A DNA stretch of 64,000 nucleotides. Origin: Desulfomonile tiedjei. GTDB taxonomy: Bacteria; Desulfobacterota; Desulfomonilia; Desulfomonilales; Desulfomonilaceae. Made by a program: the position numbers and the translations under genes. This document shows positions 3,427-7,552 of this stretch, one piece after another; positions within the stretch are counted from its first letter, which is position 1; each line of letters opens with the position of its first letter. The notes beneath the pieces are model-generated. The model did no database searches and was not told the origin of the DNA. It saw only the letters and a program-made list of their open reading frames with translations. The DNA lies in contig JACRDG010000076.1 in assembly GCA_016218715.1 (NCBI GenBank), forward strand, positions 62,001 through 126,000. Reading direction: 5' to 3'.

Positions 3427-3442
3427 AGCAAACCGCGTGCCA
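3427..3442 (-). promoter_or_regulatory. Sigma-54 (-24/-12) promoter of amtB-glnB-glnA
   Basis: On the minus strand the 16 bases read TGGCAC-G-CGGT-TTGCT. This is a full match to the sigma-54 consensus TGGCACRNNNNTTGCW, with 10 nt between the GG and GC dinucleotides. The predicted start is near 3416, about 117 nt before the amtB-1 ATG. Such a promoter needs an AAA+ activator; a NifA-like one is encoded at 5869-7461. Two copies of the shared inverted repeat lie upstream, centred near -131 and -162. Confidence 0.88.
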
Positions 3443-3536
3443 CGTGACCTTCCACAGGGACGAGTGCGTAACATATTGGAATCAAGTAGCTTATCAAGAT
3501 TGGTCTCGTGGCCCTGAGCATACCGTTCAGCTCGAC

Positions 3537-3556
3537 TTGCTACCCACAGGTAGGAT
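3537..3556. promoter_or_regulatory. Predicted activator site, proximal, amtB-1 operon
   Basis: The inverted repeat CTAC-N6-GTAGG matches the 20-bp palindrome in the activator leader (7492-7511) at 13 of 20 positions. Its centre is about 118.5 bp from the GC of the -12 element. The corresponding site at amtB-2 is at 119.5 bp. Similar distance and the shared arm sequence suggest an upstream activating sequence. Assignment to the neighbouring NifA-like protein is inference. Confidence 0.55.
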
Positions 3557-3567
3557 CTTGCAAAACC

Positions 3568-3587
3568 AGGTTACATTCTTGTAGGTT
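3568..3587. promoter_or_regulatory. Predicted activator site, distal, amtB-1 operon
   Basis: A second inverted repeat, TTACA-N4-TTGTAGG, matches the activator-leader palindrome at 13 of 20 positions. It is 31 bp from the proximal site, close to three helical turns, so two dimers could sit on the same face of the DNA. Confidence 0.5.
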
Positions 3588-3850
3588 GCGTCGCGCACGC
3601 GCGTCCTCCCGATTGCGGACTGCTCTGCACACCCGTTCCTTACCGAGGTTGCCAAAAACCCTGATCGAGAGTGACCCCAAAGCCGGGTGTCCATCCCGAG
3701 TCGAAGAGTGGTGGGATGGCCCCACCACGGCGAACTCCTTATCGGCGATCTCTTGTGACAATCACTATGATTGCTCTACAGCTCTTTTTTCTGACACTGT
3801 TCCCTAGCTTGGCGACGAAACGGTACGAATCACTTTGGCGTACGGTTGCG

Positions 3851-3885
3851 TTCCGGGTGCCTCATCCTCAGGGACGCACCCGGAA
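3851..3885. terminator. Hairpin downstream of glnK, possible terminator
   Basis: Perfect 10-bp arms, TTCCGGGTGC and GCACCCGGAA, are separated by 15 nt. It lies 71 bp after the PII stop at 3956 on the minus strand, so it could end the amtB-2 transcript. There is no run of T after it, so it may instead be a structured or Rho-dependent end. Confidence 0.4.
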
Positions 3886-3955
3886 CCGGACGGGTTTGGT
3901 GACCACGAACCGCCGCGCCGGGCAGCTCGTTTCGCCTTCTCACCTCAAGGCACTA

Positions 3956-4294
3956 CTAGATCGCATCAGCATCCTTCTCGCCGGTACGTATCCTCACCAC
4001 CTTGTCAACGGGGGTGACGAATATCTTCCCGTCCCCGATGGTACCGGTGCGTGCCGCCACGATGATTTTCTCCAGCGCAGGCTCCACAAGGTCGGATGCG
4101 ACCTCGACCTCGATCTTTATCTTCGGCAGGAAGTCCACGATATACTCGGCTCCCCGATATATTTCTTTATGACCTTTCTGTCGTCCGAACCCCTTGACCT
4201 CGGTGATGGTCATGCCCTGGACCCCGATGGAGCTGAGGGCTTCCTTGACCTCATCCAATTTGTGGGGTTTGACGATTGCTTCGATTTTTCTCAT
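3956..4294 (-). CDS. glnK: PII nitrogen regulatory protein (GlnK type), copy 2
   Basis: A 112-residue PII protein, directly after amtB-2 on the minus strand (81 bp gap). This amtB-PII pairing is typical of GlnK, which plugs the ammonium channel when nitrogen is plentiful. The T-loop (residues 37-55) with YRGAEY is the same as in copy 1 apart from Leu52 to Ile. Differences cluster at residues 61-79 and 94-98. Lys65-like T-loop neighbours change (V64E, R66A), which could alter partner choice. It is probably transcribed only with amtB-2, since a long control region follows it. Confidence 0.95.
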
Positions 4295-4375
4295 TCTTGT
4301 CCCCTTTTTCGCACTAAGCCGCGTTGGTCGCGTACCCCCGGAAAACGGGGGCGACGGAATTCCCCGAGTGATGGA

Positions 4376-5587: not shown

Positions 5588-5729
5588 CTCGGGAGCACCT
5601 CCAAAGAAAGACTTCTCTTAAGCCAAGGCCGTCCAACGCGGGGTCACCCCGTTTCCAGAGAATCCTGTCGTGGCTGATCCGGATTTTCCGCCGGTAGGAA
5701 CAACGGCTTAAGTCATCGCCGAGAAGAAG

Positions 5730-5745
5730 AGCAAAGTGGATGCCA
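5730..5745 (-). promoter_or_regulatory. Sigma-54 (-24/-12) promoter of amtB-glnK
   Basis: On the minus strand this reads TGGCAT-C-CACT-TTGCT, a near-consensus -24/-12 element with GG and GC 10 nt apart. The predicted start is near 5719, giving a leader of about 130 nt. Together with 3427-3442 it places both amtB units under sigma-54 control. Confidence 0.85.
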
Positions 5746-5840
5746 ATCGGAGGGGTAGGGGTTTCAGAATTGTTAACGTAGTGTTTTATCTGGAGGTTTA
5801 GTGTCGGCGAGATGGACGGTGGTGTAAGAACGAGGCCAAG

Positions 5841-5860
5841 AACCTACGAAAATGTAGATT
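5841..5860. promoter_or_regulatory. Predicted activator site, amtB-2 operon
   Basis: CCTAC-GAAAAT-GTAG matches the activator-leader palindrome at 15 of 20 positions. It is centred about 119.5 bp from the GC of the -12 element at 5731-5732, almost the same spacing as the proximal site of amtB-1. It lies just past the stop codon of the activator gene. A weaker match (9 of 20) 31 bp further upstream, inside the end of that gene, might be a degenerate second site. Confidence 0.58.
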
Positions 5861-5868
5861 TTGCCATG

Positions 5869-7461
5869 TCAGGCTAACACGGTGGTACGGAATCGCCGCG
5901 GGTCTATCCCGTATTTCCTCACCCGTAATCCCATGATCCGTTCCGAAATCCCCAAAGCCCGCGCTGCTTTCGCCTTGTTACCCCGCGCATTCTTCAGCGC
6001 ATCCAGTAGCAGATCTCGCTCGACGTTATCCAGGGTCGAATCCAGCGTCCCGCTGTGAATGGTGCCGCTCGCCTCCGCGGTTTGCAGCGTCGGCGGCAGG
6101 TGGCGTCCGTGGATCACCGAATCGGTGCTCAGGAGGATGGCCCGCTCGATGCAATTCTCCAGTTCCCGCACATTGCCCGGCCAGTGGTAGCTCATCAGCA
6201 TGTCTATGGCGCGGGTTGAGATCCGTTTGATCTCCTTATTGTCCGCTTTAGCGTACTTTTCTATGAAGTAATCAGCCAGCAGCGATATGTCAGTCTTGCG
6301 CTCCCGTAGCGGCGGAATGTGGATCGGGAAAACGTTGAGCCGGTAATACAGATCCTCTCTGAACGCCCCATTGCCGATGAGGTCTTCCAGTCCCCGGTTC
6401 GTTGCGGCGATGACCCGAACGTTCACCTTGATGGTTTGCGTCCCGCCGACTCGCTCGAATTCCTTCTCCTGGAGAACCCGCAACAGCTTGATCTGGGTCG
6501 TGGGGGAGAGATCTCCTATCTCGTCGAGAAAGATAGTGCCGCCGTGCGCCAGCTCGAACCGCCCCTTGCGCGTCGCGATCGCGCCGGTGAACGCTCCTCG
6601 TTCGTGGCCGAAGAGTTCGCTCTCGACGACGCTTTCCGGGAGCGCGCCGCAATTGACTTTCACGAAGGGGCGTCCTGCTCTCAGGCTGTTGAAGTGGATC
6701 GCGTGAGCGACCAGCTCCTGTCCCGTACCGCTCTCGCCTCTGATGAGCACGGTGGCGTCGCTCTTGGAGACCTGGGCGATCAGATCGTATACCGCACGCA
6801 TTGCCTTGGAATTGCCTACGATATTGGACGGCCGGAAGCGTTCCTTGAGTTGGGTCTGAAGCCGCAGGTTTTCTTCCAGAAGCCGGTGGCGTTCCTCTTG
6901 AGCCGACTGCCGGAGCTTCACGGCCTGCGCGATCATCGAGCATATGATCGAGAGCAGTCTCACGTCCTCCTCGAAGGAGACTCCTTCCGCGAAGAGCCGA
7001 TCCGCGCTGAGCGCGCCGATCACTTCGTTTCCGATCTTGATCGGGACGCAGATGAAGGAGATATCGCCCTTTTCCATCTGCTTGCGCGCACCGGTTCGGT
7101 CGAGAAAGAGCGGTTCTTCGGATATGTGCGGCACCACTGCCGGTTCCCCCGTTGCCACGACCTTCCCGGTGACCCCCTCTCCGGCTCGGTACCTCCCGCG
7201 TTCTTTCTGGCTTTCGGAGAGTCCGTGGGCGGCCTCGATGAGTATTTCGCCGGACTCCCGATTCACCAGCGTGAGGGTGCCCCGTATCATGCCCATATGG
7301 GTGGCGATGGCTTCGAGGACAGGGCCGACCACGTCGCGCAGGTCCATGCTCTGATCCAGGACTTGGCTGATCTCAAAGAGGAGGAGGAGTTCCCTTACTT
7401 GGCGTTTCACAACAGGTTGACCGCTGTGGCGAGCCGACAGGCGCGTGCGATTCGATTCCAT
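5869..7461 (-). CDS. NifA-like sigma-54-dependent activator with altered Walker A
   Basis: A 530-residue enhancer-binding protein. Residues about 25-180 are a GAF sensor domain like that of NifA (FICVPIKIGNEVIG). Residues about 210-440 are an AAA+ domain with GAFTGA at 289-294 and Walker B FLDEIGD. The C-terminus is a Fis-type helix-turn-helix with the NifA-like ending MGLRVRKYGIDPRRF. Walker A reads GESGTGQE: the lysine that contacts ATP in this family is Gln248 (codon CAG). It is transcribed towards the two amtB units and probably activates their sigma-54 promoters. A palindrome in its own leader suggests autoregulation. The family is secure; the exact regulon and whether it hydrolyses ATP are open. 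Confidence 0.9.
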   Translation of the reverse strand: MESNRTRLSARHSGQPVVKRQVRELLLLFEISQVLDQSMDLRDVVGPVLEAIATHMGMIRGTLTLVNRESGEILIEAAHGLSESQKERGRYRAGEGVTGKVVATGEPAVVPHISEEPLFLDRTGARKQMEKGDISFICVPIKIGNEVIGALSADRLFAEGVSFEEDVRLLSIICSMIAQAVKLRQSAQEERHRLLEENLRLQTQLKERFRPSNIVGNSKAMRAVYDLIAQVSKSDATVLIRGESGTGQELVAHAIHFNSLRAGRPFVKVNCGALPESVVESELFGHERGAFTGAIATRKGRFELAHGGTIFLDEIGDLSPTTQIKLLRVLQEKEFERVGGTQTIKVNVRVIAATNRGLEDLIGNGAFREDLYYRLNVFPIHIPPLRERKTDISLLADYFIEKYAKADNKEIKRISTRAIDMLMSYHWPGNVRELENCIERAILLSTDSVIHGRHLPPTLQTAEASGTIHSGTLDSTLDNVERDLLLDALKNARGNKAKAARALGISERIMGLRVRKYGIDPRRFRTTVLA

Positions 7462-7491
7462 AAAGTGCTCTCTGGTAGTTCTTGAGGGGTG

Positions 7492-7511
7492 ATCCTACAA
7501 AATTGTAGGAT
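7492..7511. promoter_or_regulatory. Perfect palindrome in the activator leader
   Basis: Nine-base arms ATCCTACAA and TTGTAGGAT are perfect complements around a central AA. It lies 30 bp before the activator ATG and about +6 to +26 relative to the predicted sigma-70 start, a position that fits repression by its own product. Related repeats stand before both amtB operons. Confidence 0.6.
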
Positions 7512-7523
7512 GACGATCCTTCA

Positions 7524-7552
7524 TTTGTAATTGGTTTTGACACTGACGTCAA
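7524..7552 (-). promoter_or_regulatory. Sigma-70-like promoter of the NifA-like gene
   Basis: TTGACG, a 17-nt spacer, then TACAAA on the minus strand (5/6 and 4/6 matches). The start would fall near 7517, just before the palindrome. Confidence 0.5.

Follow-up and report, generated by a model that had tools for sequence, protein, structure and literature searches.

Introduction

AnfA of Rhodobacter capsulatus, which targets anfHDGK, is reported to combine GAF, AAA+ and helix-turn-helix (HTH) domains, to have the consensus site TAC-N6-GTA and to use two sites per sigma-54 promoter, as at the anfH promoter (PMC7294313). VnfA1 of Azotobacter vinelandii governs the vanadium nitrogenase as well as other genes when metals are limiting; it is reported to bind GT(T/A)C-N6-GTAC, a motif obtained by chromatin immunoprecipitation, and most of its promoters contain two such motifs, similarly spaced (PMC9542535). 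The amtB, PII and glnA genes are described as the core of the proteobacterial NtrC regulon, with urea transport as a taxon-specific part (PMC5343134). Here, we analysed a sigma-54 activator gene that stands beside two ammonium transporter genes, amtB1 and amtB2, in a 64,000-nucleotide stretch of Desulfomonile tiedjei DNA (assembly GCA_016218715.1, contig JACRDG010000076.1, positions 62,001 to 126,000; hereafter the window).

The window activator resembles R. capsulatus AnfA in domain composition, predicted site and the use of two sites per sigma-54 promoter, and differs from it in its predicted targets, which are amtB-PII, urea and similar genes. Its likeness to VnfA1 lies in the site (GTAC-N6-GTAC-like, mostly two motifs). 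The predicted targets are comparable to those of NtrC, but the window activator has a GAF domain where NtrC has a receiver domain, its predicted site is different, and a partner kinase would not be expected for it. With NifA it shares domain order and an NCBIfam label. Judged by the genome comparisons below, it is very probably a one-component sigma-54 activator from the AnfA/VnfA side that serves as a nitrogen-limitation regulator, and it would most likely do NtrC-like work with an AnfA-type DNA specificity.

Paired TAC-N6-GTA sites precede the sigma-54 promoters of both amtB genes

Each amtB gene of the window has a -24/-12 promoter, both at the positions given by the first-pass annotation of this DNA (3427-3442 and 5730-5745), and two candidate activator sites upstream of it, as follows (site distances run to the TGGC of the -24 element).

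3427..3442, minus strand: sigma-54 promoter of amtB1, TGGCACGCGGTTTGCT, 0 mismatches to TGGCACG-N4-TTGCW
3539..3554, minus strand: proximal amtB1 site, CCTACCTGTGGGTAGC, 112 bp before TGGC, 1 mismatch to CCTAC-N6-GTAGG
3570..3585, minus strand: distal amtB1 site, CCTACAAGAATGTAAC, 143 bp before TGGC, left arm GTTAC, 2 mismatches to CCTAC-N6-GTAGG
5730..5745, minus strand: sigma-54 promoter of amtB2-glnB2, TGGCATCCACTTTGCT, 2 mismatches to TGGCACG-N4-TTGCW
5843..5858, minus strand: proximal amtB2 site, TCTACATTTTCGTAGG, 113 bp before TGGC, 1 mismatch to CCTAC-N6-GTAGG
5874..5889, minus strand: distal amtB2 site, CGTACCACCGTGTTAG, 144 bp before TGGC, arms CGTAC and GTTAG around CACCGT, 1 core mismatch
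5869..7461, minus strand: sigma-54 activator gene, with GAF, AAA+ and Fis-type HTH domains by Pfam

The distal amtB2 site falls within the last codons of the activator gene and completes the amtB2 pair. Four copies of CCTAC-N6-GTAGG had been annotated: one is perfect (7494-7509, in the activator leader) and two carry one mismatch (3539-3554 and 5843-5858), while the copy given as 3568-3587 has two mismatches. The annotated distances from repeat centre to the GC of the -12 element (about 118-119 bp) and the 31 bp spacing of the amtB1 copies match the coordinates within 1 bp when worked out by hand.

Within the window alone the enrichment of the repeat is weak, with 3 matches to CCTAC-N6-GTAGG (at most one mismatch) against 0.76 expected, a number reached in 5 of 100 shuffles. 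Used as a genome-wide probe at the same threshold, CCTAC-N6-GTAGG gave 73 forward matches versus 245 for the reversed control and was rejected. Because the motif was thin in the window and unenriched genome-wide, the case had to rest on relatives. We therefore compared the corresponding regions from the other 17 genomes of the window's family, a comparison by which CCTAC-N6-GTAGG is too strict and the predicted site becomes nnTAC-N6-GTAnn.

In a scan of 960 dyads (64 three-base arms × spacers 0-14), TAC-N6-GTA ranked first upstream of amtB2 (17/17; next dyad 11) and in activator leaders (16/17; next 12). Upstream of amtB1 it ranked second (11/12), behind GCA-N7-TGC (12/12), which fits the sigma-54 box. 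With the sigma-54 box as origin and at most one mismatch in six allowed per site, site pairs at 111-117 and 141-147 bp before the box were found at 28 of the family's 29 amtB promoters and represent 10 of 11 genera, counts that are not of independent events, as the genera are related and the distance windows were set after the sites had been seen; L100, with 63 nt upstream and no box, is not part of the 29. The next best arm at this geometry reached 3/29. Pairs with zero mismatches precede 22 of the 29 promoters, compared to 0 for the other arms shown, and shifting both distance windows together gave 0 in 11 of 12 shifts and 3 at -30. The first-pass annotation had proposed a scan of relatives that have an orthologous activator, looking for the repeat near their sigma-54 promoters; it is enriched there, at fixed geometry. 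The sites mark a strongly conserved predicted regulon.

The site follows the recognition helix of the activator

The activator has a GAF domain at residues 40-181, an AAA+ domain including the lid at 214-466, with a GAFTGA loop, and a Fis-type HTH at 476-517, whose recognition helix reads ISERIMGLRV (GLR type). The HTH was read in 33 other activators of the same genome: the GLR helix occurred in none, and a related helix, LRQMGYRV, in two. This reading took 34 stretches of the 44 other PF00158 matches, of which L370 gave no HTH; 10 weak matches (of 45 in the genome) and contig-edge fragments were left out.

Leaders, taken from 200 bases upstream of the start to 30 downstream of it, contain TAC-N6-GTA in 39/51 activator genes with a GLR-type helix (GLR or GIR) versus 9/76 with other helices, not counting 16 duplicate loci and the genes of L148 and L292, which are truncated where the stretch ends. 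Among GLR-type leaders the runner-up dyad reached 24/51. GLR-type leaders with the site number 15/16 in the family and 24/35 outside it, and 36/41 at ≥66% identity; the scan beyond the family covered matches aligned from within the first 29 residues. Carriers of the leader site include Desulfobacterota, Hydrogenedentota, Spirochaetota and Schekmanbacteria. Outside the family, pairs 29-32 bp apart occur at 10/35 GLR-class loci (14 pairs) versus 2/70 others, the next dyad reaching 5/35. Such pairs lie at or near the activator 3' end in L102, L081, L126, L101, L103, L133, L158 and L177, of which L126 is from Desulfocarbo indianensis SCBM, and likewise, read with the end of the open reading frame, in L152, a Myxococcales bin in which the pair and a sigma-54 box stand ahead of a nifH start truncated at the edge of the stretch.

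The sites might instead be bound by another activator of the same genome, such as the paralogue in the nif cluster, with the adjacent gene a bystander. Two activators of the genome do have the related helix LRQMGYRV, and 5/8 leaders of MGYR-type paralogues hold TAC-N6-GTA. Against this, site presence is coupled to the GLR helix outside the family as well. In family f2, amtB is mostly accompanied by an activator of ~51% identity with the helix IIQYK or one near it; no strict pair was found at the f2 amtB loci with this activator, where sigma-54 boxes remain in most and three upstream regions have a single TAC-N6-GTA. The sites also persist in G006, a genome without nifH over cut-off. We give this alternative only a slight chance. 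The annotated claim that the repeat is the binding site of the adjacent activator therefore gains support from the geometry at 28/29 promoters, from the coupling of site and helix, and from the 33 other activators without a GLR helix.

Two other arrangements were seen. A further activator gene of the D. tiedjei genome (L281 1439-1573; G000:C108:362940) has TAC-N6-GTA and a sigma-54 box upstream; its open frame of 393 aa is short for a GAF domain, and its helix is LRQMGYRV. Five f2 genomes (G022, G023, G024, G031 and G032), in which the amtB activator is not of GLR type, have a conserved arrangement of TAC-N6-GTA plus GTAACGAC and a sigma-54 box at another locus, which probably serves another regulator.

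The activator carries a NifA label and groups with proteins assigned as AnfA by synteny

The whole activator passes NCBIfam TIGR01817 (nifA) with 566.2 bits over a cut-off of 528.85, and the genome contains a nif cluster. Both would be accounted for if the protein were an ordinary NifA, active on nitrogen-fixation genes and beside amtB by chance, as would a weak match of the HTH alone to TIGR01817 (29.8 bits, E 2.6e-7). The HTH of a Rahnella NifA, however, scores 84.6 on this model, and FlbD gives the window HTH a slightly higher score (31.3 bits) than TIGR01817 does. The NifA recognition helix is of PRQ-AYR type, in contrast to MGLR in the window protein. TGT-N10-ACA did not rank among the top eight of the 960 dyads in any of the three upstream sets (amtB2, amtB1 and activator). 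The first-pass annotation had noted that the repeat differs from this NifA site; the difference stands, with the correction that TAC-N6-GTA is identical to the published AnfA consensus from R. capsulatus and similar to the site of VnfA.

The tree also separates the two groups. One clade (support 99/97) holds the window protein, four further proteins of the family, 25/26 GLR-type proteins of other families and 8 desulfobacterotal proteins assigned as AnfA by synteny, with weakly supported inner forks. The other (100/100) holds four named plasmid NifA, five nif paralogues and L205, a plasmid protein of Desulfovibrio vulgaris that was taken as a homologue of DVUA0143 and not matched by locus tag. 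DVUA0143 is described as a one-component regulator with an AnfA/VnfA-like N-terminal domain (PMC4641369) and in these respects is like the window activator, unlike which L205 groups with the nif paralogues and NifA.

G006, rated 100% complete, retains the activator, its leader site and the amtB2 sites (one with a mismatch), and its protein passes the NifA cut-off (557.4 vs 528.85). As it does so with no nifH over cut-off, the NifA label is poor evidence of nitrogen fixation. Plain NifA was set aside on the upstream dyads, the separate clade and the low HTH score, and we hold it to be very improbable.

Cysteines occur in the window activator at positions 138, 174, 271 and 437 only. With none ahead of residue 138, there is no N-terminal cysteine motif of the AnfA/VnfA kind, a difference from AnfA. 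The interdomain cysteine motif, found in many but not all NifA, is absent by the same reading of cysteine positions. No ANFD match over cut-off was found in the D. tiedjei genome in a search that covered anfD and not vnfD; anfD is present in 7/395 genomes of the phylum. Plasmid searches for AnfA and AnfD returned no AnfA record. On the NtrC model the window activator scores 353 bits against a cut-off of 558.6, and the genome has no NtrC over this NCBIfam cut-off (best 484.6), which suits, and does not prove, replacement of NtrC by the window activator.

A single leader site overlaps the predicted promoter of the activator gene

The repeat annotated at 7492-7511 in the activator leader is indeed a perfect palindrome, and it overlaps a predicted promoter.

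7494..7509, minus strand: leader palindrome CCTACAATTTTGTAGG, predicted self-repression operator, perfect match to CCTAC-N6-GTAGG
7502..7531, minus strand: predicted sigma-70-type activator promoter, -35 ATTACA at 7526-7531, 18 bp spacer, -10 TACAAT at 7502-7507 inside the palindrome

TACAAT is contained in 13/16 family leader sites, and a -35 element with at least 4/6 matches to TTGACA stands at exactly 17 bp in 13/16, other spacers giving 0-1. Because the site overlaps the -10 box, clearly in relatives and more weakly in the window, an operator for negative autoregulation is a better reading of the leader copy than an enhancer; it probably limits transcription of the activator's own gene. 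It could also be an enhancer for positive autoregulation, or functionless. The leaders of L101 and L103 hold a pair 30 bp apart, which is enhancer-like, and outside the family a -35 element (at least 4 matches) accompanies only 9/27 sites at 17 or 18 bp (6/27 and 3/27; other spacers 0-2). The window itself has an equally scoring promoter upstream, TTGACG-N17-TACAAA, which ends 14 bp before the palindrome and is uncovered by it; this promoter, a point against the operator, would place the palindrome on the downstream side of its -10. The 250 nt upstream of the window activator gene showed no sigma-54 box, and the fixed 17-bp spacing in the family favours an operator, so that we consider an enhancer or functionless copy unlikely. 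With either window promoter, protein bound at the putative operator would sit on or near the transcription start.

Predicted targets beyond amtB

The strict pair TAC-N6-GTA-N17-20-TAC-N6-GTA occurs at two places in the D. tiedjei genome, compared to one for the reversed control. The first is amtB1 (window 3541-3583) and the second, G000:C78:111383, precedes a nifV-like gene (TIGR02660, 504 bits; cut-off 462.9) followed by the nif-cluster activator paralogue (L280 15451-18165). The latter pair suggests a cascade that runs from the window activator to nitrogen fixation. A strict site within 500 bases before the nif-cluster activator (before nifV in the D. tiedjei genome) was found in 9/9 family loci, in two of them more than 350 bases off, and a sigma-54-like box follows 91-125 bp on from the site in 6/9; the box at the D. 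tiedjei nifV appears only with a relaxed -12 (TCGC). Over the 18 family genomes there were 42 strict pairs versus 11 in the control, with none in 3/18 genomes. A looser pattern, one site plus a sigma-54 box, gave five places in the D. tiedjei genome, two of which are the amtB promoters.

Additional predicted targets in relatives fit a nitrogen-limitation regulon. Three loci of genus g5 have a pair and a sigma-54 box ahead of a gene for urea transport (UrtA; 575.2 bits in L322, 575.8 in L320 and 575.3 in L323; cut-off 492.75); in a fourth g5 locus, L321, the contig ends before this gene could be scored. A pair also stands ahead of an FmdA/AmdA-family gene (PF03069) at two loci, L325, where a sigma-54 box is present, and L326, where it is not; this gene scores far below the cut-off of the NCBIfam formamidase model. 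A third ammonium-transporter gene has a single site plus box in L298 and L299, and the glnB-glnA operon of G007 a pair plus box. Several other strict pairs in the family stand before no clear target gene. The candidates C71:79453 and C108:32768 of the D. tiedjei genome, as well as the G003:C3 pairs, G007:C439, the G005 copies and G010:C224, were dropped as unconserved or with the gene unclear. The nifH promoters of L285 and L290 have two TAC-N6-GTA sites 20 bp apart that overlap a TGT-N10-ACA match; these perhaps belong to the nif-cluster activator.

Proposed circuit

From the sites, their spacing and conservation, the coupling of helix and motif, the operator overlap in relatives and the identity of the target genes, we infer binding, activation, repression and PII sensing as follows. 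Activator dimers would bind TAC-N6-GTA. Two such sites, separated by 29-32 bp or roughly three turns of the helix and lying 111-147 bp ahead of the -24/-12 box, would gather the AAA+ oligomer, which would loop to RNA polymerase-sigma-54 and open the amtB1 and amtB2 promoters. At the single site over the -10 box of its own sigma-70-type promoter, the activator would limit its own synthesis. Where nitrogenase is present, it may also turn on the promoter of the nif-cluster activator (via the nifV-like gene in the D. tiedjei genome), a step like the NtrC to NifA cascade.

The N-terminal GAF domain probably senses nitrogen status via the PII proteins of the same gene groups. Both window PII proteins have the T-loop tyrosine 51 (by eye). 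In Rhodopseudomonas palustris, AnfA is reported to be inhibited by deuridylylated PII and to be relieved of this inhibition when the GAF-linker part is removed, with the contact modelled (PMC12093980).

Several points weigh against reading the activator as an AnfA-like nitrogen-limitation regulator. PII sensing rests on the analogy with R. palustris. The sole exception to the site pair is the amtB2 promoter of G002 (L099), the strict leader site is absent from 12/51 GLR-class leaders, and one GLR-type protein, L101_9529, falls outside the clade of GLR-type and AnfA-by-synteny proteins. On the AnfA side, TAC-N6-GTA occurs in 0/7 readable leaders of AnfA-by-synteny genes; a site with a sigma-54 box 91 bp on is present at the anfH promoters of only L296 and L297 among 7 anf loci (L291 and L292 have a site with no box at that distance, and L294 has site and box before the activator gene itself); and A. 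vinelandii AnfA sites are reported to share GTA and to lack the TAC arm (PMC7294313). At 484.6 bits, the genome may contain a diverged NtrC. Finally, the Walker A motif of the window activator reads GESGTGQE, with Q replacing lysine (codon 248, window 6718-6720). Lysine occupies this position in 158/160 aligned rows, and both Q rows are the window's gene itself, so that the Q is either a one-base assembly error or marks an allele unable to hydrolyse ATP properly; the family-wide conclusion is untouched by it.

In the G002 genome only a fragment of the activator was found, on a contig other than that of L099.

Taken as a regulator of the AnfA/VnfA side, the protein gives a group annotated NifA a predicted regulon, a DNA site and wiring. 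Its NifA label can mislead, in that it may be mistaken for evidence of nitrogen fixation. The predicted circuit is compact, with a paired enhancer partly in the last codons of the activator gene and an operator over a -10 box, and one short motif may serve both activation and repression. It also connects the AnfA/VnfA site to general nitrogen control and makes the origin of the alternative-nitrogenase activators testable. A wider proposal, which we put forward tentatively and regard as possible though doubtful, is that a widespread one-component regulator labelled NifA (in Desulfobacterota, Hydrogenedentota, Spirochaetota and other phyla) replaces NtrC for ammonium uptake, assimilation and scavenging, and that AnfA and VnfA descend from this older stock, with the site kept and the targets changed. 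In the open-licence literature, searched by title and start of abstract, no such amtB regulator was found described, which does not prove its absence.

Locus organisation

All six nitrogen genes lie on the minus strand within the first 7.6 kb of the window, in a genome of 5.55 Mb. Downstream of the activator gene these are as follows.

4376..5587, minus strand: amtB2 ammonium transporter, PF00909, E 4.1e-137
3956..4294, minus strand: glnB2 (PII), PF00543
2088..3302, minus strand: amtB1 ammonium transporter, PF00909, E 1.3e-125
1656..1994, minus strand: glnB1 (PII), PF00543
26..1438, minus strand: glnA, from the open reading frame and homologues in relatives (synteny)

The gene order activator-amtB-glnB-amtB-glnB-glnA is widely kept in the family, some loci being cut by contig ends or lacking one amtB. 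Perhaps glnA is read through from the amtB1 promoter, by co-transcription. A beta-barrel-like outer-membrane gene stands between activator and amtB in L126, L101, L104 and L122; its Gcw_chp match comes from the scan of L126, the other three having been judged by eye.

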